A stretch of DNA of 64,000 nt from Siphonodentalium dalli (taxonomy: Eukaryota > Mollusca > Scaphopoda > Gadilida > Siphonodentaliidae). Below the pieces are notes generated by a model. It did not search any database. It was not told the origin of the DNA and saw nothing but the letters and a program-made list of their open reading frames with translations. Where the stretch lies: NCBI GenBank assembly GCA_032622095.1, contig CP136066.1:103995319-104059318 (forward strand), in the 5' to 3' direction. Made by a program: the position numbers and the translations under genes. How positions within the stretch are numbered: position 1 is the first letter of the stretch; every line of letters begins with the position of its first letter. Shown here one piece after another: positions 3,848 to 59,000 of the stretch.

Positions 3848-5135
3848 GTTTGTTTTTTGTTTGTTTGTTTGTTTTATATTTGTTAGCTGAAAATTATGTA
3901 TCATTTATGCAATCAGTGCATATTCGGTTTTTGCATCGAACGCTTGCTGAATAGGTAGTAATAATATCCACTTTCAAACGTTTTCGGAAGACATGTCTTG
4001 ATTGCTTTGAGGTATATTTACTTTCTACGGAATTCCACATAAAGGGGAATGAATGGTATGGGAAACTTTAGAAAAAGAGAATTTGTTTTGTACTATGGGA
4101 TCAGATTGCCGTCTATTTGGTTCTGCTCTCTTGTCATACATACCAGAAAAAGACACTGGTAAGCGACCGTATTTCCAATCATGTATGCAAATGGATGCAT
4201 GTAATTTATGTAAATCATCTATTTTTTAAATGTTTTCTTGTTCGAAAAGAGGACTTTGTAATAAATATAGTTTCTTCACTGCTGGTACATGTCCCCATAT
4301 TTAGATGCCATAATCTAAGTGGCTTTGAATTTGGGCGAAGTATAATGTTTTGAGAGACTTGCTCGGGAGAAAATGTTTAACTTTATTAATGCCATAAATT
4401 GCATGTACCATTTTGAGTATGCAATGGAAATGTGTTTGTTAAAGGTCAGGTTTTCATCTAGATGGATACCTAAAAAATTGGCAGACGATTAGTTCCGCAT
4501 GTTCCCTATCCGCCGAAGTTCGGCTTCATTAAGATATATTTTAATTGTATTCCATTTTTGTCATTGTTTTGTGGATGTAAGAGCATATAATTGCTCTTGT
4601 TAGCATTGATGGCTAGTTTGTTGCAGCAACACCAGTCAGATAGATTTCTTAATTCATTATTGACATAACTTTGGATTAACGCCTCATTTGGTCCACTTGC
4701 CATAAGGGTTGTATCGTCGGTAAATGATAACAGTTCCATAATAGTTGCATTTGACATATCGTTCACGTAGAGAACAATTATGGGCCCGAGTAATGATCCT
4801 TGAGGAACACCATATAAAGTTTTAAGGGGATTTGACTTAATTCCATTGAATTATACGTATTGTCGTATCATTGAGATAGCTTCGAAACCATTTGTTTGCC
4901 ATGCCTCTAATTCCATAATGTTCCATTTTTGTAAATAAGATGTCGTGGTTTATTGTGCCAAAAGCTTATTGCATATACGCAAAATAAAGATCGTAATAGC
5001 TTGCGATCAATCGTGAAATCAGTCTTGTTTATTTCAGCCATGTATGTTTCCAAATTACCCCATTCAAGTTACAACCAGTTAGTTGTCGTTTTCAGCGCTG
5101 AGAAAGGTGACTTCAAAATTGAATCGTTGGCCTCA
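3848..5135 (-). pseudogene. Dead non-LTR retrotransposon fragment, reverse transcriptase and 3' end
   Basis: The minus strand reads through reverse-transcriptase landmarks in order. Near 4960-4870 there is a block with '[17 protein letters not shown]' and 'KWFRSYLND', the usual region before the catalytic motif. At about 4815-4780 there is 'GVPQGSLLGPI' followed by 'YVNDM'. At about 4725 there is 'LLSFTDDTTL', matching the conserved FADD box with A changed to T. Then come 'WCCCNKLAIN..KS' and, near 4470, 'FLGIHLDENLTF', typical of the post-RT region of Jockey/CR1-like elements. Stops and frameshifts interrupt the frame (for example near 4845), so it is inactive. A (TTTG)n tract at 3848-3885, which is (CAAA)n on the coding strand, may be its 3' tail. 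The clade cannot be fixed by eye. Confidence 0.8.
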
Positions 5136-7272: not shown

Positions 7273-9030
7273 GATGGACACAGTCTACTCATGTTCTATA
7301 CAGTCTATTCGGGTTTTACACAGTCTACTCGGGTGCCACACTGTCTACTCGGGTTTTACACTAGTGTTCTACACAATCTACTCGGGTTATACACAGTCTA
7401 TTCGGGTTCTACACAGTCTACTCGGGTTCTACACAGTCTACTCGGGTTCTACATAGTCACTCGGGTTCTACAGTCTACTCGGGTTATACACAGTCTATTC
7501 GGGTTCTACACAGTCTACTCGGGTTATACAGTCTACTCGGGTTATACAGTCTACTCGGGTTATACAGTCTACTCGGGTTCTACAGTCTACTCGGGTTATA
7601 CAGTCTAGGTTCTACAGTCTACTCGGGTTCTACAGTCTACTCGGGTTATACAGTCTACTCGGGTTATACAGTCTACTCGAGTTACACAGTCTACTCGGGT
7701 TATACAGTCTACTCGGGTTACACAGTCTACTCGGGTTATACAGTCTACTCGGGTTATACAGTCTACTCGGGTTACACAGTCTACTCGGGTTATACAGTCT
7801 AGGTTATACAGTCTACTCGGGTTCTACAGTCTACTCGGGTTATACAGTCTACTCGGGTTCTACAGTCTACACGGGTTATACAGTCTACTCGGGTTATACA
7901 GTCTACTCGGGTTATACAGTCTACTCGGGTTATACAGTCTAGGTTATACAGTCTACTCGGGTTCTACAGTCTACTCGGGTTATACAGTCTACTCGGGTTC
8001 TACAGTCTACTCGGGTTCTACAGTCTACTCGGGTTATACAGTCTACTCGGGTTATACAGTCTACTCGGGTTACACAGTCTACTCGGGTTATACAGTCTAC
8101 TCGGGTTATACAGTCTACTCGGGTTATACAGTCTACTCGGGTTCTACAGTCTACTCGGGTTATACAGTCTACTCGGGTTATACAGTCTACTCGGGTTCTA
8201 CAGTCTACTCGGGTTATACAGTCTACTCGGGTTATACAGTCTACTCGGGTTATACAGTCTACTCGGGTTATACAGTCTACTCGGGTTCTACAGTCTACTC
8301 GGGTTATACAGTCTACTCGGGTTATACAGTCTACTCGGGTTCTACACAGTCTACTCGGGTTATACAGTCTACTCGGGTTCTACAGTCTACTCGGGTTATA
8401 TACAGTCACTCGGGTTCTACACAGTCACTCGGGTTCTATACAGTCACTCGGGCTCTACACGGTCTACGCGGGTTCTCCACAGTCTACTCGGGTTATACAG
8501 TCTACTCGAGTTATACAGTCTACTCGGGTTCTACACAGTCACTCGGGCTATACACGGTCTACGCGGGTTCTCCACAGTCTACTCGGGTTATACAGTCTAC
8601 TCGGGTTCTACACAGTCACTCGGGTTCTACACAGTCACTCGGGCTCTACACGGTCTACGCGGGTTCTCCACAGTCTACTCGGATTATACAGTCTACTCGG
8701 GTTCTACACAGTCTACACATTAATTGTAAACAGTCTACTCGGGTTATACACAGTAGTTGTAAACAGTCTACTCGGGTTCTACACGGTAGTGGTAAACAGT
8801 CTACTCGGGTTCTACACGGTAGTGGTAAACAGTCTACTCGGGTTCTACACGGTAGTGGTAAACAGTCTACTCGGGTTCTACTCTGTAGTTGTAAACAATA
8901 TATTCGGGTTCTACACAGTAGTTGTAAAAAGTCTACTCGGATTATACACAGGAGTTGTAAACAGTGTACTCGGGTTCTACACAGTAGTTGTAAATAGTCT
9001 ACTAGGGTTCTACACAGTAGTTGAAAATAT
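7273..9030. repeat. Minisatellite, 18-bp core changing to about 33-bp units
   Basis: About 1.75 kb is made almost entirely of variants of 'cagtctactcgggttata'. Units of 18 bp dominate from about 7500 to 8400, with 20-bp versions (tacacagtctactcgggttc) near the left edge and at 8340-8720. From about 8720 to 9020 the unit lengthens to about 33 bp by gaining 'gtagtggtaaa' between cores. Several ORFs run through it only because 18 and 33 are multiples of three. They are not genes. Confidence 0.95.
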
Positions 9031-25223: not shown

Positions 25224-25362
25224 TAAAGTGATGTGAAACACTCCGGTTGGGTGAACAAATAGAAATGGAGAATAATCTTGCTCAAAGTAGTTATTTTTAT
25301 GAATTTTAACCAAAATTTACAACACACACCGTCAGTCTTATATATTTATTAAATTCAATGAG
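25224..25362. repeat. Left half of a split host repeat, Polinton target
   Basis: Matches 55538-55675 ('taaagtgatgtgaaaca', 'caaatagaaatggagaataa', 'acaacacacaccgtc'). It ends with AATGAG at 25357-25362, the target duplication. The other half resumes at 30333. Confidence 0.85.
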
Positions 25363-26105
25363 AGTAGTACATGAGGCTCGTTACCCCCACATCTAAAAAT
25401 ATATTTTTTGGCGGGTAAAATTGTTTGTACTAAAATATTCAAAAAAAAAAGTTTTTTTTTAAACAAATCTCTAAAATTTATAACGAGTTTTCGGTCTCTT
25501 ACCCAAATATCGGCCGACTATTAAATGTCGAATGTTTTTTTTAAATATTTGCGTGTAATATCTTTTGTTATTTTTGTTCAAACAAATTTTAAATATTTTT
25601 CATGAAACTGTTAATTTTATTAATCGATGTCTAGAAATAGCTTTATACCAATTATATGTGTATGGACTGGTCCGAGTCGCTGTAATTTTGGACATTGTCA
25701 CCATCGGTATGAATGCATACATTCCAGTGTTTATCAATCAGACGCAGCCCATACTCATATAATTGTCTCCACAATACCTGAAATAATTTGACACCATTAC
25801 TCTTACATAAATAATAAAGAGCGATTATTCTTTACTTCTCTATCCCGATGAAGTTATTGAGTATATGACAGGTGTGCATTATCGCGAATTATAAATTATT
25901 GAGATGTTGTACTATTTTGAATCACGAGCGGACAATACACACGCAGTGGGTGAAAGTTAAAATGACACAGAACAATATTTAAACTTCAAATTTTAGGGCT
26001 CTTAATGTACCATTTATGTATCGTTTCTCGCTCTACAATCTCCCCTCCCCACTTATAGATATATAACGAAGACGAGAATAACATGTTGATGAAGTTTATT
26101 GGAAT

Positions 26106-26577
26106 TTAATCATTGTCTGAATCTTCGACCGTTAGAGTTATTTCTAAGAGTTTCTTGAATTTTCTCATCGCTTCATCTGCAGCCCATTCATTATTATATC
26201 CGTGTTTGGTCAGTTTGACCATTTTCTTCATGATCATGTTATGTATGGGTGATGTTTTCAATCGATACTGGTATTCTATTAATCGTCTATAACTTTTGAG
26301 AAAGAGAGCAAACTCTGTGTCGATGGTAGCTTCTTTTCCCCACATGCTCTCATCTCCCGACATGCTCTCTTCTCCTTTCGCATCATTGGTGATGCGTTTC
26401 AGCATACTTTTGAATGTGTCCATCTCGTTGACACATCGCGCAACTTTCTTAAGACCGAATACCGTTCTACTACCGACGACATTATCATCTTCTGAATCTG
26501 ACGAAGCGGTTCTAGATTCAGTTGAAGATGAACGGGGAACGATATCAGATTCTAGGTCATCGGTATCTTCTCCGAAG
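26106..26577 (-). pseudogene. Left-arm copy of the zinc-finger gene, 5' part deleted
   Basis: Matches the gene at 28641-29216 from the acidic region to the stop codon, with only small differences such as SMWGKE for SMSGKE and MLKRI for MMKRI. The zinc finger and the start codon are gone because the 672-bp deletion joins it to sequence downstream of the PC4-like gene at 26575-26577. In frame, upstream of the junction, a stop codon appears. The longest Met-initiated remainder is 105 residues (26106-26423). It is probably non-functional. Confidence 0.85.
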
Positions 26578-26702
26578 TTTATCGCCTCTTATAAAAATCG
26601 ATTATCTGGATATTTATTAATCGAATCGTCGCTAGTCAGGTACAGATAATAATTATCCATATGACTATAGTTTCTAAAAAAAAAACAATTCAAAGAGAAT
26701 CA

Positions 26703-26824
26703 TTATTCTTCTTCTCTTATAGTTTTATTGATATCACTGAATATATGCTTGAAGATTGACCACTGGTTCAAATTTAACGGAATACCTATAATCGTCGGAG
26801 TGTTATTCACAACTCGCCTAATGA
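26703..26824 (-). pseudogene. Left-arm copy of the PC4-like gene, C-terminal part only
   Basis: The last 37 or so residues (VVNNTPTIIGIPLNLNQWSI onward to the same stop) are identical to the intact copy at 27477-27947. Upstream it runs straight into the repeat array, which happens to stay open and encodes a meaningless 'HLLIFLLICSF' repeat. Half of the PC4-like domain and the membrane segment are missing. Confidence 0.85.
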
Positions 26825-27311
26825 GCAAGAAAATGAGCAAATGAGCAAAAAAATGAGCAAATGAGCAAGAAAATGAGCAATGAGCAAGAAAATGAGCAAA
26901 TGAGCAATAAAAATGAGCAAATGAGCAAAAAAATGAGCAAATGAGTAAAAAAATGAGCAAATGAGCAAGAAAATGAGCAAATGAGCAAGAAAATGAGCAA
27001 ATGAGCAATAAAAATGAGCAAATGAGCAAAAAAAATGAGCAAATGAGCAAGAAAATGAGCAAATGAGCAATAAAAATGAGCAAATGCTCATTTGCTCATT
27101 TTCTTGCTCATTTGCTCATTTTTTTACTCATTTGCTCATTTTTATTGCTCATTTGCTCATTTTCTTGCTCATTTGCTCATTTTTTTTGCTCATTTTTTTG
27201 CTCATTTGCTCATTATTTTGCTCATTTGCTCATTTTTTTGCTCATTTGCTCATTTTTTGCTCATTTGCTCATTTTCATTTGCTCATTTTCTTTTGCTCAT
27301 TTGCTCTTTTT
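26819..27311. repeat. Inverted array of TTGCTCATT units at the fold centre
   Basis: 26819-27084 consists of ATGAGCAAATGAGCAARAAA units (about 20 bp), and from 27085 the same units continue as their reverse complement to about 27311. The dyad centre is near 27085. Linker variants between units run in the order A-type, C-type, then long-T on both sides once the right side is shifted by two units, which supports mirrored origin followed by slippage. The six long ORFs across it, in several frames, are repeat artefacts. Confidence 0.9.
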
Positions 27312-27476
27312 CTCACCCTCTTTGAATATACTTTGGGTGATATTCTGTGTCATTGTTAATTGATTGGTGCATACTCAATCAAGATCTCAACGAAACGCAT
27401 TATTGACATCGATAACTATCATGGTGCATTTGGCATTCATGGCCAGACAAATTTAATTCATGGATTTTAGAGTCTG

Positions 27477-27947
27477 ATGTCGCCAGATATCAAAATTAAT
27501 AAGAGTAAGTTGTACACGAGAACAATTACAATCATGGATAATAGAACAGGTACCTTGACGAAAACGTTTCAAACAGAACGTGGTCGTCTACATATGAATC
27601 TCCTTAAATGGATAGGAATTACTATTATGGTAATCACTGTGTCACTACCATTTATTTTAGTTCCAAAGAAGATACCGTGTGAGTCGGTTGACTATGAATT
27701 ACTTCATACTAATATGTCACACCCCAATGATTACGAACAACACCCGTGTGTTTTCGTGAAAAAGTGGACAATACGATCAAACATTACTGTTACATTATGT
27801 AATAATCAAGGACACATTTATACAGACATTAGCCGAGTTGTGAATAACACTCCGACGATTATAGGTATTCCGTTAAATTTGAACCAGTGGTCAATCTTCA
27901 AGCATATATTCAGTGATATCAATAAAACTATAAGAGAAGAAGAATAA
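27477..27947 (+). CDS. Polinton-borne membrane protein with C-terminal PC4-like domain
   Basis: 156 residues. Residues 1-43 are polar. Residues 44-62 (LLKWIGITIMVITVSLPFI) form a clear membrane span. Residues 64-97 contain two Cys (68, 91) and a possible NMS glycosylation site. Residues about 98-153 resemble the single-stranded-DNA-binding domain of PC4/p15 coactivators: a beta strand 'ITVTLCNN', then 'GHIYTDISRVV', then 'GIPLNLNQWSIFKHIFSDIN', matching the family pattern of 'DIR', 'G..L...QW..L' and a final helix. PC4 proteins bind melted DNA and aid transcription. A membrane anchor before such a domain is unusual, so the split into two functions is inference. The start could instead be the Met at residue 20. 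It is the first gene after the TTGCTCATT array. Stop at 27945-27947. Confidence 0.7.
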   Translation: MSPDIKINKSKLYTRTITIMDNRTGTLTKTFQTERGRLHMNLLKWIGITIMVITVSLPFILVPKKIPCESVDYELLHTNMSHPNDYEQHPCVFVKKWTIRSNITVTLCNNQGHIYTDISRVVNNTPTIIGIPLNLNQWSIFKHIFSDINKTIREEE

Positions 27948-28128
27948 TGATTCTCTTTGAATTGGATTTTTTTTAGAAACTATAGTCATATGGATAATTA
28001 TTATCTGTACCTGACTAGCGACGATTCGATTAATAAATATCCAGATAATCGATTTTTATAAGAGGCGATAAACTTTCTAAAATAAAATGCAGAAAAAAGA
28101 GTGACTTGTACGCTACATTTGAAGAAAC

Positions 28129-28452
28129 ATGTCGATCCCGTATATTCCAGCAGATATTGAAACGTGGAGAAAACATTTCAGAGACATGCTTGATGGGAAG
28201 TTAACGCCAGATAATAAGGGTCGATACTTTATTGACAGAACTAAAAATAGTGATAGTGAAGAACACGTTCTAAAACCACATATTAACGTAGTGACGCCCA
28301 TCGCTCAAGCGATTGAAATGGCTAAGGCCGAAGTTGCAGCAAATAAGTTGACAAACACACGTAAAGCGTCCAAACAAACCAACAAGAGAGTGTTAGCTGG
28401 AGGTTTGTCTAATAATAAGAAGAAAATGAAAAGAAAAGTGTCATACGATTAG
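28129..28452 (+). CDS. Small basic protein of the Polinton gene cluster
   Basis: 107 residues starting MSIPYIPADIETWRKHFRDM. The N-terminal third has a 'YIP...W..HF..M..GK' pattern that I loosely associate with small conserved proteins of Polinton-like elements; this is recollection, not a match I can verify. The middle is helical (VVTPIAQAIEMAKAEVAANK). Residues 78-107 are strongly basic (NNKKKMKRKVSYD), which fits nucleic-acid binding or nuclear import. It lies 181 bp after the PC4-like gene on the same strand and only 7 bp before the next ORF. It is absent from the left arm because of the 672-bp deletion. Confidence 0.65.
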   Translation: MSIPYIPADIETWRKHFRDMLDGKLTPDNKGRYFIDRTKNSDSEEHVLKPHINVVTPIAQAIEMAKAEVAANKLTNTRKASKQTNKRVLAGGLSNNKKKMKRKVSYD

Positions 28453-28459
28453 CCAAATC

Positions 28460-28702
28460 ATGAATGAATACATAGAGTACCATACTGATAAATTGGCATT
28501 AATTGAATCACCGGCGGTCAAAGATCTATACCCTAGACCCGGGACGAACGTACTCTTAACGCGACGGTTGTATGCCACACCATATTCTCTCTTTTTATCG
28601 CTACTTATAAGAGTGATCGTTCTTCCAATAATTCGCGATAATGCACAGGTGTCATTTATGCGGAAATATTTTATCGACGAACTACAATCTACAAAGACAT
28701 AA
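28460..28702 (+). CDS. Small ORF between the 107-aa and zinc-finger genes, doubtful
   Basis: 80 residues. Residues 1-45 are polar; residues 43-58 (SLFLSLLIRVIVLPII) are hydrophobic and could be a membrane span. It begins 7 bp after the previous stop and overlaps the zinc-finger ORF by 62 bp in another frame. It may be a real small membrane protein, or the upstream part of the zinc-finger gene separated by a frameshift. I cannot decide between these. Confidence 0.35.
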   Translation: MNEYIEYHTDKLALIESPAVKDLYPRPGTNVLLTRRLYATPYSLFLSLLIRVIVLPIIRDNAQVSFMRKYFIDELQSTKT

Positions 28703-29216
28703 ACAGATTAAACACGGAGTTATGTCCGAGACAAAAACAGATTTCTTCGGAGAAGATACCGATGACCTAGAATCTGATATCGTTCCCCGTTCATCTTCAA
28801 CTGAATCTAGAACCGCTTCGTCAGATTCAGAAGATGATAATGTCGTCGGTAGTAGAACGGTATTCGGTCTTAAGAAAGTTGCGCGATGTGTCAACGAGAT
28901 GGACACATTCAAAAGTATGATGAAACGCATCACCAATGATGCGAAAGGAGAAGAGAGCATGTCGGGAGATGAGAGCATGTCGGGAAAAGAGGCTACCATC
29001 GACACAGAGTTTGCTCTCTTTCTCAAAAGTTATAGACGATTAATAGAATACCAGTATCGATTGAAAACATCACCCATACATAACATGATCATGAAGAAAA
29101 TGGTCAAACTGACCAAACACGGATATAATAATGAATGGGCTGCAGATGAAGCGATGAGAAAATTCAAGAAACTCTTAGAAATAACTCTAACGGTCGAAGA
29201 TTCAGACAATGATTAA
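28641..29216 (+). CDS. C2H2 zinc-finger protein of the Polinton gene cluster
   Basis: 191 residues. A single classical C2H2 finger sits at the extreme N-terminus: Cys4, Cys7, His20, His25, spacing C-x2-C-x12-H-x4-H. Residues 30-75 are acidic and Ser-rich (SSSTESRTASSDSEDDN). Residues about 93-185 are a mostly helical domain with 'SYRRLIEYQYRL' and 'MIMKKMVKLTKHGYNNEW', and the protein ends in an acidic tail. The role is probably DNA binding, but the target is unknown. It is the last gene before the element terminus. A broken copy lies in the left arm at 26106-26577. Confidence 0.72.
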   Translation: MHRCHLCGNILSTNYNLQRHKQIKHGVMSETKTDFFGEDTDDLESDIVPRSSSTESRTASSDSEDDNVVGSRTVFGLKKVARCVNEMDTFKSMMKRITNDAKGEESMSGDESMSGKEATIDTEFALFLKSYRRLIEYQYRLKTSPIHNMIMKKMVKLTKHGYNNEWAADEAMRKFKKLLEITLTVEDSDND

Positions 29217-30332
29217 ATTTCAATAAACTTCATCAACATGTTATTCTCGTCTTCGTTATATATCTATAAGTGGGGAGGGGATATTGTAGAGCGAGAAACG
29301 ATACATAAATGGTACATTAAGAGCCCTAAAATTTGAAGTTTAAATATTGTTCTGTGTCATTTTAACTTTCACCCACTGCGTGTGTATTGTGTTTCTTTAA
29401 CATTCATTCAAAATGAGTGCTGTGTGTCCCTTTAGAGCGCATTGTGCTCCTTTAATATTCACACACCAATATTACATAACGTCCCTTACATCGTGTCACT
29501 TTAACATTCCACACCATGCGTGCATTATCCCCCTTTAATTATGTCATAGCATTGGTACATAGAAGACTGTATAACACTATGCCTATGTCTGTATATGTTG
29601 TCACATCGTGAGTGTATTGTCCACAATTTTAAGTTTTTGAAATTTTTTTAATTTTTGAAGTTTATGAAGTTTTTGAAATTTTTGAAATTTTTGATTCGGG
29701 TTGTAATTTCGCATCACCCTCTTCGTCCGCTCGTGATTCAAAATAGTACAACATCTCAATAATTTATAATTCGCGATAATGCACACCTGTCATATACTCA
29801 ATAACTTCATCGGGATAGAGAAGTAAAGAATAATCGCTCTTTATTATTTATGTAAGAGTAATGGTATCAAATTATTTCAGGTATTGTGGAGACAATTATA
29901 TGAGTATGGGCTGCATCTGATTGATAAACACTGGAATGTATGCATTCATACCGATGGTGACAATGTCCAAAATTACAGCGACTCGGACCAGTCCATACAC
30001 ATATAATTGGTATAAAGCTATTTCTAAACATCGATTAATAAAATTAACAGAGTTTCATGAAAAATATTTAAAATTTGTTTGAACAAAAATAACAAAAGAT
30101 ATTACACGCAAATATTTAAAAAAACATTCGACATTTAATAGTCGGCCGATATTTGGGTAAGAGACCGAAAGCTCGTTATAAATTTTTGAGATTTAAAAAA
30201 AAAAAATAATTAAAAATTTTTGAAAAAATGTTTGGATTTTGAATTTTAAAAAAAAAATATTTTAGTACAAACAATTTTACCTGCCAAAAAATCTATTTTT
30301 AGATGTAGGGGTAACGAGCCTCATGTACTACT

Positions 30333-30567
30333 AATGAGTATCGATGGCGAAATCATCTGCGTTAGTTTATCGCCGATTGTTGCGTCCCGAATCGAGATGT
30401 AAATATTTACAATTGAGCGTATCTCAGACGGTGTTTTCTATGGAGTTGTATGGTCGATTTCTTTGAGTTTTGGGCGATGTTAGTAGAATGCTACATTCTC
30501 CCAGTTAGCATAGCGCCTGATTACTAATTTATCAGTTTCAAGCAGCCGAACAAGTCCATAATATGTA
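30333..30567. repeat. Right half of the split host repeat, with second AATGAG
   Basis: Begins with the target duplication AATGAG (30333-30338) and continues with sequence matching 55676-55903: 'tcgatggcgaaatc', 'gttagtttatcgccgat', 'gatgttagtagaatgctaca'. Together with 25224-25362 it rebuilds the 55.5-kb repeat at the same length. Confidence 0.85.
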
Positions 30568-34489: not shown

Positions 34490-36330
34490 AAGAAATTATA
34501 TTTGACGGCACACTGTGACCACTATTGTTGAACAGGCCTTCTATACATTTCCATTTGTAACTTTTTTGTGGAAACTATATTGAATGGGGCAGACTCAATT
34601 GTGTTATACTATTAACATGAGCTATTCTAATATTTTAACATGCACCATTATCTCCCTCGTAAAAAGTTACCACTGTTAGAACGCCTTGGTGCCATCTCGA
34701 TTGTACCCCGTGAAGTTATATAATAGAACACATACAGAGATGCATTTATTTGCAAATATATCTAGGCACCAAATGCGATGTTTTTAACACGCACGATTTG
34801 ATTCCTCGTATCATTTGAGAAGAACCTGTATGAATTTGATGTTAATTGGCACTAAACATATTTCTATCAGTTTTGGTGACCCGCCCGTCCCTATTTCGGA
34901 CTCAAGCGGCGCGACATTTGACATCATTAAACCACAAACTTAGACTCATTATGGAGATGAATATATATAAAATTGTTGAAAATTGACGAGTATACAAATT
35001 CGTATCAAATTTAAGGCCCCCATTTCTCTCACCCAAACGGCAAACATTTGGCGTATTTAAACCACACGATTAGATTCATCGAATCACGGAGAAGAATATG
35101 TATCAGTCTGGTGGAAATCGGCGCTAAACATATTTTTATCAATGTTTGTGTCTCTCTCATCCTCTGTGGACCCCTGTTTCGAATGGCACCACTTTTTACA
35201 TCTTTAAACCACACAATTAAGACTCCTGATATCACGGAGATGGTTATTTATAAGTTTCGTGCTAATCGGCGACTAAACAATTTTTGTTATCAAATTTAGT
35301 GCCCATCCCACACCATCTCTCACACAAACAGCATCAACATAGCGTCTTTAAATCACATGATTTGATTCCTCGTATCATGGATAAGAATGTGTATCAATTT
35401 GGTGAACATTGGCGCTAAAATATTGTGTATCAATTCTGGTGCCCCTCTCCTTTTCAGTGCATCCCTGACTCGAATGACGCCAGTTTTAAATGTTTTAAGC
35501 CACACCATTAGACTCATCATACCATGTGGATGATTTTGTATAAGTTTTGTATCAATCGGTGACTAAACCAATTCTTATCAAATTTAGTGCCTACTCACCC
35601 CTCCCCAATCATATACAAACGACACCAATTTGGCGTCTTTAAATCATACAAATTAGATTCCATGTATCATGGAGAAGAATGTTGTATCAATTTGGTGGAA
35701 ATCGGCGCTAAAATTAGATTTATCAATTTTGGGGCCCCTCTCCCCGTCCGTGCACCCCTGACACGAATGGCGCCACGTTTGACATATTTAAACAACACCA
35801 TTATATTCCCCATATCGTGGGAATGATTATATAAAAGTTTGGTGGCAATCGGCGGCAAACATTTGTTCTGCCCCTCCTCTTTACAACCCCTGACAACAGC
35901 ATCACTTAAAAAAATTCTAACCCACACCATTATCTTTCTCGTAAAAAGTTACCCCTAGTAAACCAGTTTTGTCCCTCGGCGCTAAACTTAGTTTATCAAT
36001 TTCGGTGCCCCTCTCCCAGTCCGTGCATCCCTGACTCGAACGGCGCCAATTTTGACATATTAAAACCGCACCAGCAGATTCCTTATCTCATGGGGATGAT
36101 TATATATAAGTTTCGTGCAATCGGCGACAATGTTTTTTCTGCCCTCCCCCTTTTCTGCCCCTGAAAACAACGGCGTCACTTTAGAAAATCCTAACCCGCA
36201 CCATTATCTTTCTCGTAAAAAGTTACCCCTAGTAGACCCCTTTGGTGCCATCTAGATGGTCCCCTGTGAATTTCTATAGAACACAGACAGACAGACAGAG
36301 AGACATTCGCAAATATAGATATAGATTATA
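34490..36330. repeat. Diverged tandem array, about 290-bp unit, about 5-6 copies
   Basis: Landmarks recur roughly every 275-295 bp: 'tcggcgctaaa' near 35118, 35409, 35702 and 35976, each followed by 'tatcaatt.tggtgcccctct' and 'cgaatg.cgcca.ttt'. Versions of 'cgtaaaaagttaccc' and 'ttggtgccatct' occur near 34660, 35940 and 36216. It ends in a short (CAGA)n tract near 36283. No conserved ORF; the opposing short ORFs are artefacts. Confidence 0.8.
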
Positions 36331-54189: not shown

Positions 54190-55345
54190 ATCCAATGCTC
54201 CATGCCCATGTTACAAGCTGAAATGTTCATGCGGATACAAAATTAAGAAATTCCCAAGGCAAACAAGGGCCGTATATTTGGTAAAAATGAATAGACGAAA
54301 CCTGTAGTAAGACGGTGTCCTTACAATCAGCTCTGCTATCACCGTGCCAAAGGACAACGAAATCCGATAATTAACACCTGAGTTAGAAGGTGATATGTTT
54401 AGACGGTCACAAAATTCACAAATTTCCAAGTCAAACAAGGGCCGTAACTCTGGTAAAAATTAATGGACGAAACCCGTTTTATGTGGATATCCTTCCCCCA
54501 GCCTGTGCTATCACCATGACAAAGAACAACGAAATCCGATAATTAACACCCGACTTACAAGTTGATATGTTCGGACGGACAGATGGACGGACGAAAATGT
54601 CTGAGACAAACATGGGCCACATTGGTACAAATGAATGGGCCACCTTGGTAACAAGAGCACGCCGTCGGGGCGTGGCATAATACGCCCGTTTCTGGAGTAG
54701 AGTGGGGCATGTAGACAGAACTCATATTTGAACTTGATCTGTATACCAAATTTGGTTCAGTTCACTCGATTCAATCTAAAGTTATCATCTGGAAACCGCA
54801 TATCAGGTATAATCTAAGTCGAAAAAGGGCACAACTCAGTCAAAATCATGCGGACGAAACCCATATTCGAACCTGGTCTGTATTTTGGGGTGGTAAACTA
54901 ATATACCAAATTTGGTTCAGTTCACTTGATTCAATATAAAGTTATCATCCGGAAACCGCAAATCAGGTAAAATCTAAGTCGAAAAAGGCACATAACTCAC
55001 TCAAAATCATGCGGACGAAACCCATATTCGTACCTGGTCTGTATTTTGGGGTGGTAAACTAATATACCAAATTTGGTTCAGTTCATCGATTCAATCTAAA
55101 GTTATCATCCGGAAACCAAAAGAGGACGGACGGACGATGGACGGACGACGGACGGACGGACAACCCATTTACATAATACGACCGTTTTTTCAAACGGGCG
55201 TATAAAAATGAATGGACGAAACCCGTAGTATATGGGTATCCTATTCCCCGACCTGTGCTATCACCATGTCAAAGGACAACGGAATCCGATAATTAACACC
55301 CGGGTTATAATGTGATATGTTCGGATGGACAGACGGACGGGTGGC
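54190..55345. repeat. Dispersed repeat region with tandem partial copies
   Basis: 'aaggacaacgaaatccgata' and then 'attaacacc' recurs near 54350, 54530 and 55271. 'accaaatttggttcagttca' recurs near 54746, 54906 and 55066. Several 'gacggacggac' runs are present. This is the mollusc-like dispersed repeat style, non-coding. Confidence 0.75.
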
Positions 55346-56019: not shown

Positions 56020-59000
56020 AGTCATCACTCCTCGTCCGTCGTCCGTCCGTCCGTCTGTCTGTCCGTATGTCCGTCTGTCTGTCCGTCTGTCCGTCTGTCC
56101 GTCCGTCAACTTTTTTAAAAACATCTTCTCCTCTTAAACCATCATACCGAATTGGTTCATATTTGGTGTGTATGTTCCCTTGTTGACTCTCATTCAGATT
56201 TGTTCAAATCAGGTCACTGGGTCAAATAGTTGCGAAACAAGGGCCATAACTCTATTCCTCCATAGTAATTCTTACAACAACTTCTTGTCCATAACCATTG
56301 GGCCAATTTAGCTAATATTTGGTATGGAGAGTCCTTGGGTGACTGGTGTTCAGATTTGTTCAAATGAGGTCACCCGGTCAATTAGTTGAGAAACCAGGGC
56401 CATAACTCATAGTGATTCTTACAATGACTTCTTCTTAAAAAATATTTGGCCGATTTAGCTTATATTTGGTACAGAGATACCTTGGGTGACTGGGGTTCAG
56501 ATTTGTTCAAATGGGGTCACTGGGTCAAATAGGGGCAGAGCCAGGGACATAACTTTAAAAACAAAAAATTTAATTTTTGCATTTTGACCTTTAATTTTTG
56601 TTTAGGACACATCACAGCCTCATATTTCTTACCTAGATTTTTCTTAGCATGTTCTTCATCTGTATGGATTTTGGTATTGTTTATTTAACCCCTTCCACTC
56701 TTGTTTTGATATAGAATTCATCCAAGACAGGATTACTCAAACATTTTTCATCTGATCAACACCAAATTTGGTATATGAATTTTTGACACTTATATACATA
56801 TCAAGTTAAAATATGGGTTTGATCAGATATATTTTAACAGAGTTATGGCCCTTTATAATTCACACCCCTTTGCTATGCACTATTATTTTTTAAGAGGACA
56901 CTCTAGCCTGTATTATTGAAAAAGCCAATTTATCATAGTGTGGTCACCCGATCCTCTTGCTGAATACTGCTTGCTTCAGACCAGTTTATCATCTGTCATT
57001 ACAAGACATGACATTAACTAAACAACTACCAGAGTCTACAAGGAATAGTCCATTGTTCATTTCTCCAAGCCTGGACATAGTGTGTCTGACATTTGCAGAA
57101 TGAAGTCCCCAGATGGTGAATTTAGTGTTGCTACCCCATACAACAGGCTAGCATCACCAAATACACCTCAATTACCTTATTCTGCTTAGGCCTCATCTTC
57201 TGGGACAATTTTTTAAAAAACTTTTTTTTAAATTTGACAAAAAAGTGACACCATTATATATAACATCTGCATAGTTATGAAACTTTACTCTTTAATGAAA
57301 TTATGGAAACATTCCACCCTCCCCACCCACCCCCTCCCATATGGCCCAGGCCCAACCCTGCCATCAACCAACATCCCTTCCAAGCCATATCACCTCTCAA
57401 TTTAATACCTCTTCTCACCACAGAGGCATATATATATGTAAAGGTACAGGTCATTAATTATATAAACTGGCCAGATGACATGTATTATTCTAATCTAAAC
57501 ATATCTGTAGCAATTTAATGACTGACATTCAATGATACTGTGAATGGCTTTGATTTCTTCAAGTCTGGAAATAGTGTGTCTGACATTTACATAGTGAGGT
57601 CCCCAGATGGTGAATTTAGTGTTGCTATTCCATACAGCATGCTAGCATCACCAAATACACTTGCCAGGGACCTAATTCTGCTTAGTCCTCATCTTCTTGG
57701 AAGTATCCTAAGTATCAAATTGACAGTTTGATTTAGTCACTTTTTCCACCTGTTCAGTTTCAATGTCCCCCTAATTTGCAGAAGATAAAATGCATAATTG
57801 AGGTGCTCAATGGGTGCGTATCACCAACTTCAACTGTAGGACTTCAATCTGTTCCTTGGTTTTATTGGCCATTGAGGCCTAATCAGATTGAGGATGAATT
57901 TGGTGATGCTAGCCTGCCTTACAGAATATTGTCATTAAATCCACATTTTTGGGACCTAATTCTGCAAATGTCAGACATACTAAATTCAGGTTTGGCCATT
58001 TCATATTATTGTTTTAATCACCACTTATCCAGATGAAATCATACGACTAATATTCAAAGAAAAATGGGGGGGGGGGGGGTATATATTGGATTAAATTTGT
58101 CTTCTATCTGGCATTTGCAGAATGAGGTCCCCAGAGGGTGAATTTAGTTATGCTACCCTGCACAGCAGTCTAGCATCACCAAATACACTAGCCAGGGTCC
58201 TCATTCTGCTTAGGCCTCATCTTCTGGGAAGTATATAGGCACTTAAATTGACATTTTTACTTACTTTAGCCCTTCTGTTTAGTTTCTATATCCCCTAATT
58301 TGTGAATATAAAATGCATAATTGAGGTGCCCAATGGGTGCACATCACCAACTTTAACTGGAGAACTTCAATCTAATGCTATGTCTCCCATAGCAGTTGAG
58401 GCATACACAGAATGAGGTCCCCAGAGGGTGAATTTGGTGATGCTAGCCCGCATTGCAGGATTGTGTCATTAAATTCACCCTTTGGGGACCTCATTCTGCA
58501 AATGTCAGACACTATGTTCACGCTTGTCTGTTCGAATATTATGTTCTTAACCACCAGTATCCAGTTGAACTCATTATACCCTGATTTTGCAAAGAAAACT
58601 TGGGGGGTATATTGGATTGAATTTGTCAGTCTCTATGTCAGCCTGTTCTCCCATCCATCCATCTGTCATTATGTCTCTATCCGTCCATCAATTGTTTTCT
58701 TCTCCAGATACATATTAAAGACCAAATGGGTTTATATATTTAGGTGTGGATGTTCCCCAGGTGACTCACATTCAGATTTGTTCAAATGAGTTCATCAGGT
58801 CAAATATGTGAGAAGTCAGGGCCATAACTCTTTCCTTCCATAGTAATTCTTAAAACAATTTCTTCTCAAGAACCATCTGGACTATTTAGATTATGTTTGG
58901 TATGGATGGTCCTTCGGTGACTGGGTTTAGATTTTTTCAGATTTGGGGTCATTTTAGGAAAATCAGTTCAGTTCAACTCTTAAAATCTAATGTCTGAAAT

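Follow-up and report, generated by a model that had tools for sequence, protein, structure and literature searches.

A 64,000-nucleotide stretch of contig CP136066.1 of the scaphopod Siphonodentalium dalli (GCA_032622095.1, forward-strand positions 103,995,319 to 104,059,318), here called the window, contains at 25363-30332 an element of 4970 bp, bounded by direct AATGAG hexamers, whose two arms lie head to head. It probably belongs, as a degenerate copy, to a multicopy family of Polinton derivatives that are palindromic and non-autonomous and that would have arisen by fold-back and spread as palindromes. What the sequences show directly is a terminal repeat shared with full Polintons, an arm that is a deletion mosaic, the head-to-head arrangement, integration in one piece with a 6-bp duplication, a fold tip common to insertions with different duplications, and an arm deletion seen only in the window copy.

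Structure of the window element

The target-site duplications AATGAG were read at 25357-25362 and 30333-30338. The match across the junction is exactly 6 bp, and the outermost 15 bases at each end are exact inverted copies of each other (AGTAGTA...TACTACT). The preliminary description, which was made from the letters of the window alone, had reported these flanks and the AG...CT inverted ends, and both hold to the base; integration as a single unit, which it had also proposed, is borne out by the 6-bp duplication. The flanks have no mutual homology at E<=1e-3 and just matches of 11-29 nt (E 0.035-0.43). The duplicated hexamer at 25357-25362 is also the core of the unit AATGAGCA of the internal array (26820-27313). 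This is perhaps a coincidence, as other elements are flanked by different hexamers.

Between the two arms, six blocks correspond as reverse complements at 92-100%. In the self-comparison, the inverted pairs are 25363-25439 and 30256-30332, 25453-25544 and 30115-30206, 25536-25609 and 30051-30124, 25608-25933 and 29725-30050, 25932-26577 and 28745-29390, and 26575-26823 and 27827-28075. The longest uninterrupted inverted match is 646 nt at 99%, which excludes a chance origin of the symmetry, and the share of the element within inverted partners is 0.69. The arms differ at 14 of 1372 bases over five ungapped blocks, a count in which adjacent blocks overlap by 2-3 bases and from which the A/T-rich sixth block is excluded. 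In the A/T-rich terminal stretch the arms differ by indels, and the identity of the left terminal 201 bp with the right end is only 80% over 236 bp. The arms are also unequal in content: 29391-29724, 28076-28744 and 27314-27826 are absent from the left arm. Since relatives carry these three blocks, the left arm has probably lost them; the loss junctions have, by eye, short microhomology of about 2-4 bp. The inverted duplication of one end around an array, as first described, stands, with the qualification that the arms are unequal.

From the left end inward, the element consists of a terminal repeat common to full-length Polinton relatives (segments T and B, 25363-25933, plus strand), segment C (25932-26577, plus), which contains the zinc-finger gene on the minus strand with its N-terminal part missing, segment D (26575-26823, plus), which contains the TM gene 3' part with the sequence downstream of it, and the left AATGAGCA array (26820-27086, plus). 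The arms join in this array, with about 267 bp on the left side and 229 bp on the right side, where it reads TGCTCATT (27085-27313, minus). The fold point inside the arrays was placed by eye at 27076-27092 (TGAGCA-AA-TGCTCA), and its register is ambiguous because the best inverted array matches leave either 42 or 97 nt between them. The right arm then continues outward with segment G3 (27314-27826, plus; integrase 3' stub and TM gene 5' part), D (27827-28075, minus), G2 (28076-28744, plus; p107, the 5' stub of a 431-aa gene and the start of the zinc-finger gene), C (28745-29390, minus), X with 9-bp tandem repeats (29391-29724, plus) and the terminal repeat (B and T, 29725-30332, minus); G3, G2 and X with its repeats are the right-only blocks. 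The order of the arm from the end inward is therefore terminal inverted repeat (TIR), 9-bp repeats and X, zinc-finger gene ZnF191, 431-aa gene stub, p107, TM gene TM156, integrase stub and array. The integrase stub of G3 is 22-26 codons long in other copies.

The junction between C and D in the left arm (26477-26676) was spanned at one of 40 scored places in the genome, which is the window itself; the other 39 match only the D half. The window copy looks like a later variant of the palindrome family.

Full-length and palindromic relatives

The terminal 201 bp used as a genome query gave 41 matches, with 40 of 1229 candidates scored, and 32 surrounding stretches (L numbers below) were fetched. 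Genes of full Polintons are present among these relatives. DNA_pol_B_2 (PF03175) was detected in L024 (E=8.4e-52) and L042 (E=3.4e-33), the rve integrase in L017 and, together with a chromodomain, in L023 and L038, and the Pox_A32 ATPase in L012, L021 and L033 and, below the cut-off, in L011. The integrase frames of L023 and L038 are open over 381 codons. A 209-aa protein of L038 is 31% identical to the L012 ATPase and has, by itself, no Pfam match above the cut-off. The Polinton kinship first suggested by the ends is supported by this terminal repeat, which is common to relatives with PolB, integrase and ATPase. Among the open reading frames (ORFs) of the window there is neither PolB nor packaging ATPase, and of the rve integrase there is merely the 3' stub. 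Because PolB is missing, the window element is a derivative and not an autonomous Polinton, and without its own PolB or full integrase it fits dependence on a helper.

The full-length relative C9 is about 18.8 kb long with a TIR of 957 bp at 97.6%; it was read in three pieces, and several of its frames are broken. Its order is TIR, 485-aa frame and PolB, 323-aa gene, PC4, TBP, 431-aa gene, p107, TM gene, integrase, A32-like ATPase and TIR. C3 (L038 and L042) has the same gene order, with the PolB-side end outside the fetched stretch. The possibility raised earlier that ordinary terminal repeats already contain the whole gene cluster does not apply to C9, the sole relative seen end to end, in which p107 and the TM gene are single-copy and internal to the repeats. 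With a large deletion allowed for, the window arm is collinear with the PolB side of C9, and ZnF191 was not found in C9 by DNA match. In the arm, the cluster has the opposite sense to the near integrase end, and it is joined to the orphan zinc-finger gene and two gene stubs; the arm is thus not an unaltered Polinton terminus, as had been supposed. In L032 (duplication GCTATT), a window-like arrangement runs into a longer 3' part of the integrase and ends in an ordinary repeat, and L032 is a non-palindromic cousin of the window element.

Both ends were seen in 20 elements: the window, L009, L010, L011/L012, L013, L014, L015, L018, L021, L022, L027, L028/L044, L029, L030, L032, L034, L036, L037, L040 and C9. 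A 6-bp duplication is present in 17 of them and was not found for L013, L015 and L030. The junction test gave exactly 6 bp in 14 of 14 elements (the window and 13 others); L011/L012, C9 and L028/L044 were read separately, and the C9 duplication TATAGT holds only with one extra ACT at the right end. The elements are not all independent: a single rearranged locus is represented by both L013 and L014, and the flanks of L039 and L040 agree at 500 of 500 bases. These duplications bear on the idea that two separate Polintons inserted head to head and were fused later by deletion. Polinton ends do cluster at some loci (three in L013), but the outer flanks of two insertions are not expected to form one 6-bp duplication, and we regard this origin as extremely improbable. 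Hardly more credible is an artefact of assembly or sequencing. Long-read data are known to contain fold-back chimeras, but a chimera would mirror the flanks, and those of 14 tested elements are unrelated except for matches of at most 63 nt in four; moreover, the window arms differ by about 1% and by three blocks. The preliminary description had itself named an artefact as the finding that would overturn it, and the unrelated flanks, exact 6-bp duplications and many sites disfavour one.

The fraction of each element lying in inverted partners varies widely: 0.90 in L027, 0.88 in L040, 0.85 in L029 and L034, 0.77 in L030, 0.66 in L015, 0.61 in L037, 0.57 in L013, 0.55 in L036, 0.51 in L014, 0.48 in L010, 0.46 in L018 and L022, 0.38 in L009, 0.27 in L021 and 0.19 in L032. 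L028 (8.6 kb; left half 0.99) and L011/L012 (10.2 kb; 1.00 and 0.97) are near-complete palindromes. Arm length was taken as this fraction times half the element length, with the 957-bp repeat of C9 as yardstick and a cut of 1.2 kb chosen after the values had been seen. Arms of at least 1.2 kb were found in 13 of the 20 (the window, L010, L011/L012, L013, L014, L022, L027, L028, L030, L034, L036, L037 and L040). The arms of L009, L015, L018 and L029 are about 1 kb, not beyond ordinary repeats, and those of L021 and L032 are shorter still. Gene or array segments beyond the terminal repeat occur in both arms of 11 of the 20 (the window, L010, L011/L012, L013, L014, L027, L028, L030, L036, L037 and L040).

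Segments C, M (the central block of L028-like layouts) and D were used as genome queries, and head-to-head copies within 12 kb were scored. Segment C gave 11 such pairs from 40 places, compared with about 0.002 by chance; its neighbours otherwise were one opposite-order pair, which sits at a rearranged locus, and two same-strand pairs, at the L013 and L039 loci. Segment M gave nine head-to-head pairs from 42 full-length places (three partial matches excluded) and segment D nine from 40, both with no opposite-order pair. Because the spacing of D is 2.8-3.2 kb in seven of its nine pairs, near the 2.84 kb of L028, these may share the L028 layout. The three queries together gave 29 pairs at 27 distinct places including the window. 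The suggestion that such forms are a general class of non-autonomous Polintons is thereby supported.

A fold tip composed of (CAA)n, CCG/CGG runs and (TTG)n is common to L011/L012, L020, L028, L030 and L039/L040, and insertions with this tip have different duplications (L011/L012 AACGAT, L028 AATATG, L040 TGTACC). L013/L014 and L022 have it too, the other arm being truncated (duplications TGTGTC in L014 and TACCAC in L022). The junctions of L036 and L010 bear a similar motif, and the tip of L037 is different. Since one fold tip is found at insertions with different duplications, the palindrome itself appears to spread. At the single locus of L039 and L040, the inner CAA run of one (L039:2960-3095) is TTG in the other (L040:4400-4545), like a flip of the tip.

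Proposed origin and spread of the palindromes

The following course is probable. In the replication of a deleted Polinton, synthesis would have jumped to the complementary strand as template and returned to the end where it began, so that each side of the resulting molecule has a replication origin and an end that the integrase recognises. With these, the polymerase and integrase of full Polintons could copy and insert the palindrome, which would then spread as a palindrome, and deletions near the fold and within one arm would give the present variety. For the window copy, the simplest account starts from an L028-like layout, in which the central M blocks would have been lost by joining of two inverted arrays and three blocks lost from one arm. 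Most likely, then, the window copy has shed its M block as well as three blocks of its left arm, and its fold now lies in the array.

In this account, fold-back by template switching, and replication and integration by the enzymes of full Polintons, are the steps that we infer, as would be any interference with full Polintons. Several points weigh against it. Six of the nine M pairs are 3.3-5.8 kb apart, with L045 between one such pair, and at C5:34.6 Mb M copies flank a further palindrome, with arms 98.6% identical and symmetry extending outward, which holds a paralogue of the zinc-finger gene, about 86% identical to segment C. In view of the wide M pairs and the inner palindrome, the tip common to these insertions may have formed later, when a longer palindrome was deleted at its centre. 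As to the sample, all counts are lower bounds, with about 40 candidates scored per genome query. Long non-palindromic elements are under-represented, since they exceed the fetched stretches and so appear among the 11 one-ended loci (L019, L020, L023, L024, L025, L026, L031, L033, L035, L038 and L039), which include L023, L024 and L038, all of full type. Elements that are short and have two ordinary repeats, such as L018 and L029, also score as paired, and arm length was preferred as the measure for that reason.

The relationships between the arms of one element are also mixed across segments. Segment B is part of the ordinary terminal repeat; there, the mates are mutually nearest in six of nine elements (L009, L011/L012, L022, L034, L036 and the window, where the distance is 0.92% to the mate and at least 1.57% to others) and not in C9, L021 and L029. 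For segment C, L027 is the one element whose mates are clearly nearest (0.46% vs at least 4.2%), which does not hold in L010, L011/L012, L013, L037 and the window; in the window the mates differ by 0.77%, and the right arm differs from L010 by 0.31%. The D mates of the window differ by 1.2%, with the left arm at 0% from L037, and by distance neither D nor G3 brings mates together in the window, L028 or L040. The copies are so alike that they form a star-like burst. These distances speak against a palindrome made anew for each insertion, and they would fit exchange between elements too.

They also bear on the origin first proposed, namely that a snap-back molecule was formed from one end of a full Polinton and that the window holds that molecule as integrated. 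Such one-step capture would explain the 6-bp duplication with head-to-head arms, the fold at a tandem array, which is a plausible site for strand switching, and the closeness of the arms in segment B, although B is within the ordinary repeat. We nevertheless judge it improbable, because the mosaic arm is not seen at the terminus of the full-length relative, in segments C and D the window arms match other elements at least as closely as they match each other, the fold tip is common to relatives at several sites with differing duplications, and one left-arm junction is unique among the 40 scored places. The window element is thus unlikely to be a freshly captured defective molecule.

A more serious alternative, though one that we still hold unlikely, is expansion of terminal repeats by recombination or gene conversion between the ends, as discussed for Galileo, with no fold-back in replication. 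The graded arm lengths of the relatives and the mixed arm relationships agree with it, and Galileo copies recruit sequence adjacent to their TIRs (PMC3573991). Stepwise growth can hardly produce near-symmetric elements with arms of about 3-5 kb and M copies 65-117 bp apart (L028, L039 and L040; L011/L012 similar), and the Galileo TIRs reach only about 1.26 kb (PMC3573991). Spread of ready-made palindromes is the account that we prefer.

An AG terminus with terminal repeats of hundreds of bp is a feature of the Polinton family. The window element is like Polintons (Mavericks, polintoviruses) in its AG...CT termini, 6-bp duplications and genome relatives with PolB, rve integrase and A32-type ATPase, and unlike them in the absence of PolB, full integrase and ATPase, in its 4970 bp, in its palindromic form and in its orphan zinc-finger gene. 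Polintons are 15-20 kb in size with a characteristic gene set (PMC4028283). Among the papers listed by searches of the open-licence PMC literature, none dealt with palindromic or snap-back Polintons, and none with inverted duplications of adenovirus or palindromes of pGKL1. Symmetric defective genomes of adenovirus and palindromic derivatives of the yeast linear plasmid pGKL1 are examples of protein-primed linear DNA giving head-to-head forms; to our knowledge, these are not integrated with 6-bp duplications. Snapback genomes of adeno-associated virus, symmetric and asymmetric, have a terminus duplicated head to head and depend on a helper (PMC8235507). The window element resembles them in that its ends are the same terminus and its arms are inverted around a fold, whereas those are packaged subgenomic parvovirus molecules and these are multicopy, heritable genomic insertions of a Polinton relative. 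Foldback/Galileo elements have long, variable TIRs of up to about 1.26 kb and many TIR-only copies (PMC3573991). Long, variable terminal inverted repeats in many copies are found here as well, but Galileo belongs with P-superfamily transposases whereas the relatives here carry PolB and the rve integrase; no search aimed at a P-type transposase was made.

If this account is true, an animal genome keeps a sequence-readable record of Polinton fold-back products with exact integration scars, an integrase is able to insert a molecule that has the same end on both sides, and there is a class of long natural palindromes that is expected to affect genome stability and small-RNA silencing. It is possible, if rather doubtful, that the palindromic derivatives form a heritable satellite class which, produced by fold-back in protein-primed replication and having two identical origins and integration ends, out-replicates its helpers and spreads with ZnF191, p107 and the TM gene. 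Fold-back transcripts of the two arms could also give double-stranded RNA against full Polintons.

Retained genes and other features

The right arm contains three ORFs on the plus strand. TM156 (27477-27947) is 80-83% identical to the integrase-adjacent TM gene of L017, L023 and L038, and p107 (28129-28452) is 78-81% identical to its homologue in the same three. Of the 431-aa gene found in full Polintons, a 5' stub lies at about 28460-28531 (plus; extent by eye from the ORF translation). ZnF191 (28641-29216) has a weak N-terminal zf-C2H2 match below the Pfam cut-off (E=0.0066), and a single protein search gave no homologues. A miniature inverted-repeat transposable element was ruled out by the long open frames in the arms, which are found also in full Polintons.

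The pairwise nonsynonymous/synonymous ratio is 1.12 for TM156 (12 copies, 66 pairs), 0.97 for p107 (14 copies, 91 pairs) and 0.57 for ZnF191 (11 copies, three with a stop, 55 pairs). The ZnF191 ratios are uneven by pair: L027 gives 0.53-0.77 against the others, and several other pairs exceed 1 or have no synonymous change. Compared with full Polintons, the ratios are 0.45 and 0.53 for the TM gene and 0.78 for p107. From these ratios, past constraint on the TM gene is possible, and present function of the retained genes is unproven.

The full-length Polinton encodes a TATA-binding protein (TBP; PF00352, E=9e-32) as well as a coactivator of PC4 type (PF02229, E=8.2e-9), with TBP/PC4 frames at L041:5746-6300 (+), L041:5303-5764 (+) and L042:522-932 (-). 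These domain matches suggest that it supplies its own transcription factors; TBP genes in a published polinton-related paper belong to other elements. The conserved 431-aa protein, a possible capsid protein, has no Pfam, PHROG or PDB match, and its named matches include the bivalves Saccostrea, Mytilus and Pinctada and Solemya symbiont records. No adenovirus-like protease was matched among the frames scanned, which are part of all frames.

A second ATPase (the L011, L012, L021, L025 and L033 group) has a weak N-terminal zinc-finger match in L012 and L011 and is 31% identical to the ATPase of the full element. It is accompanied by a 155-aa frame, and both lie inside a 5.0-kb element at L021:2981-8001, as if genes were split among elements. 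At L033:2889-5291 (-), an RVT_1 reverse-transcriptase frame (E=2.1e-32) is placed between two parts of the 155-aa gene of an ATPase-bearing relative. Segment M of L028 contains at 4404-4547 an integrase C-terminus fragment (codons 320-371, 40% identical), inverted relative to the integrase stub of the arm, which is a trace of a second Polinton type in the mosaic.

Elsewhere in the window, 7280-8708 is a minisatellite with 78 copies of an 18-bp unit, adjoined at 8712-9027 by an array of a 33-bp unit. Tandem arrays of long units (147-291 bp) are located at 35046-35861, 54211-54578, 54742-55117 and 56261-56554.

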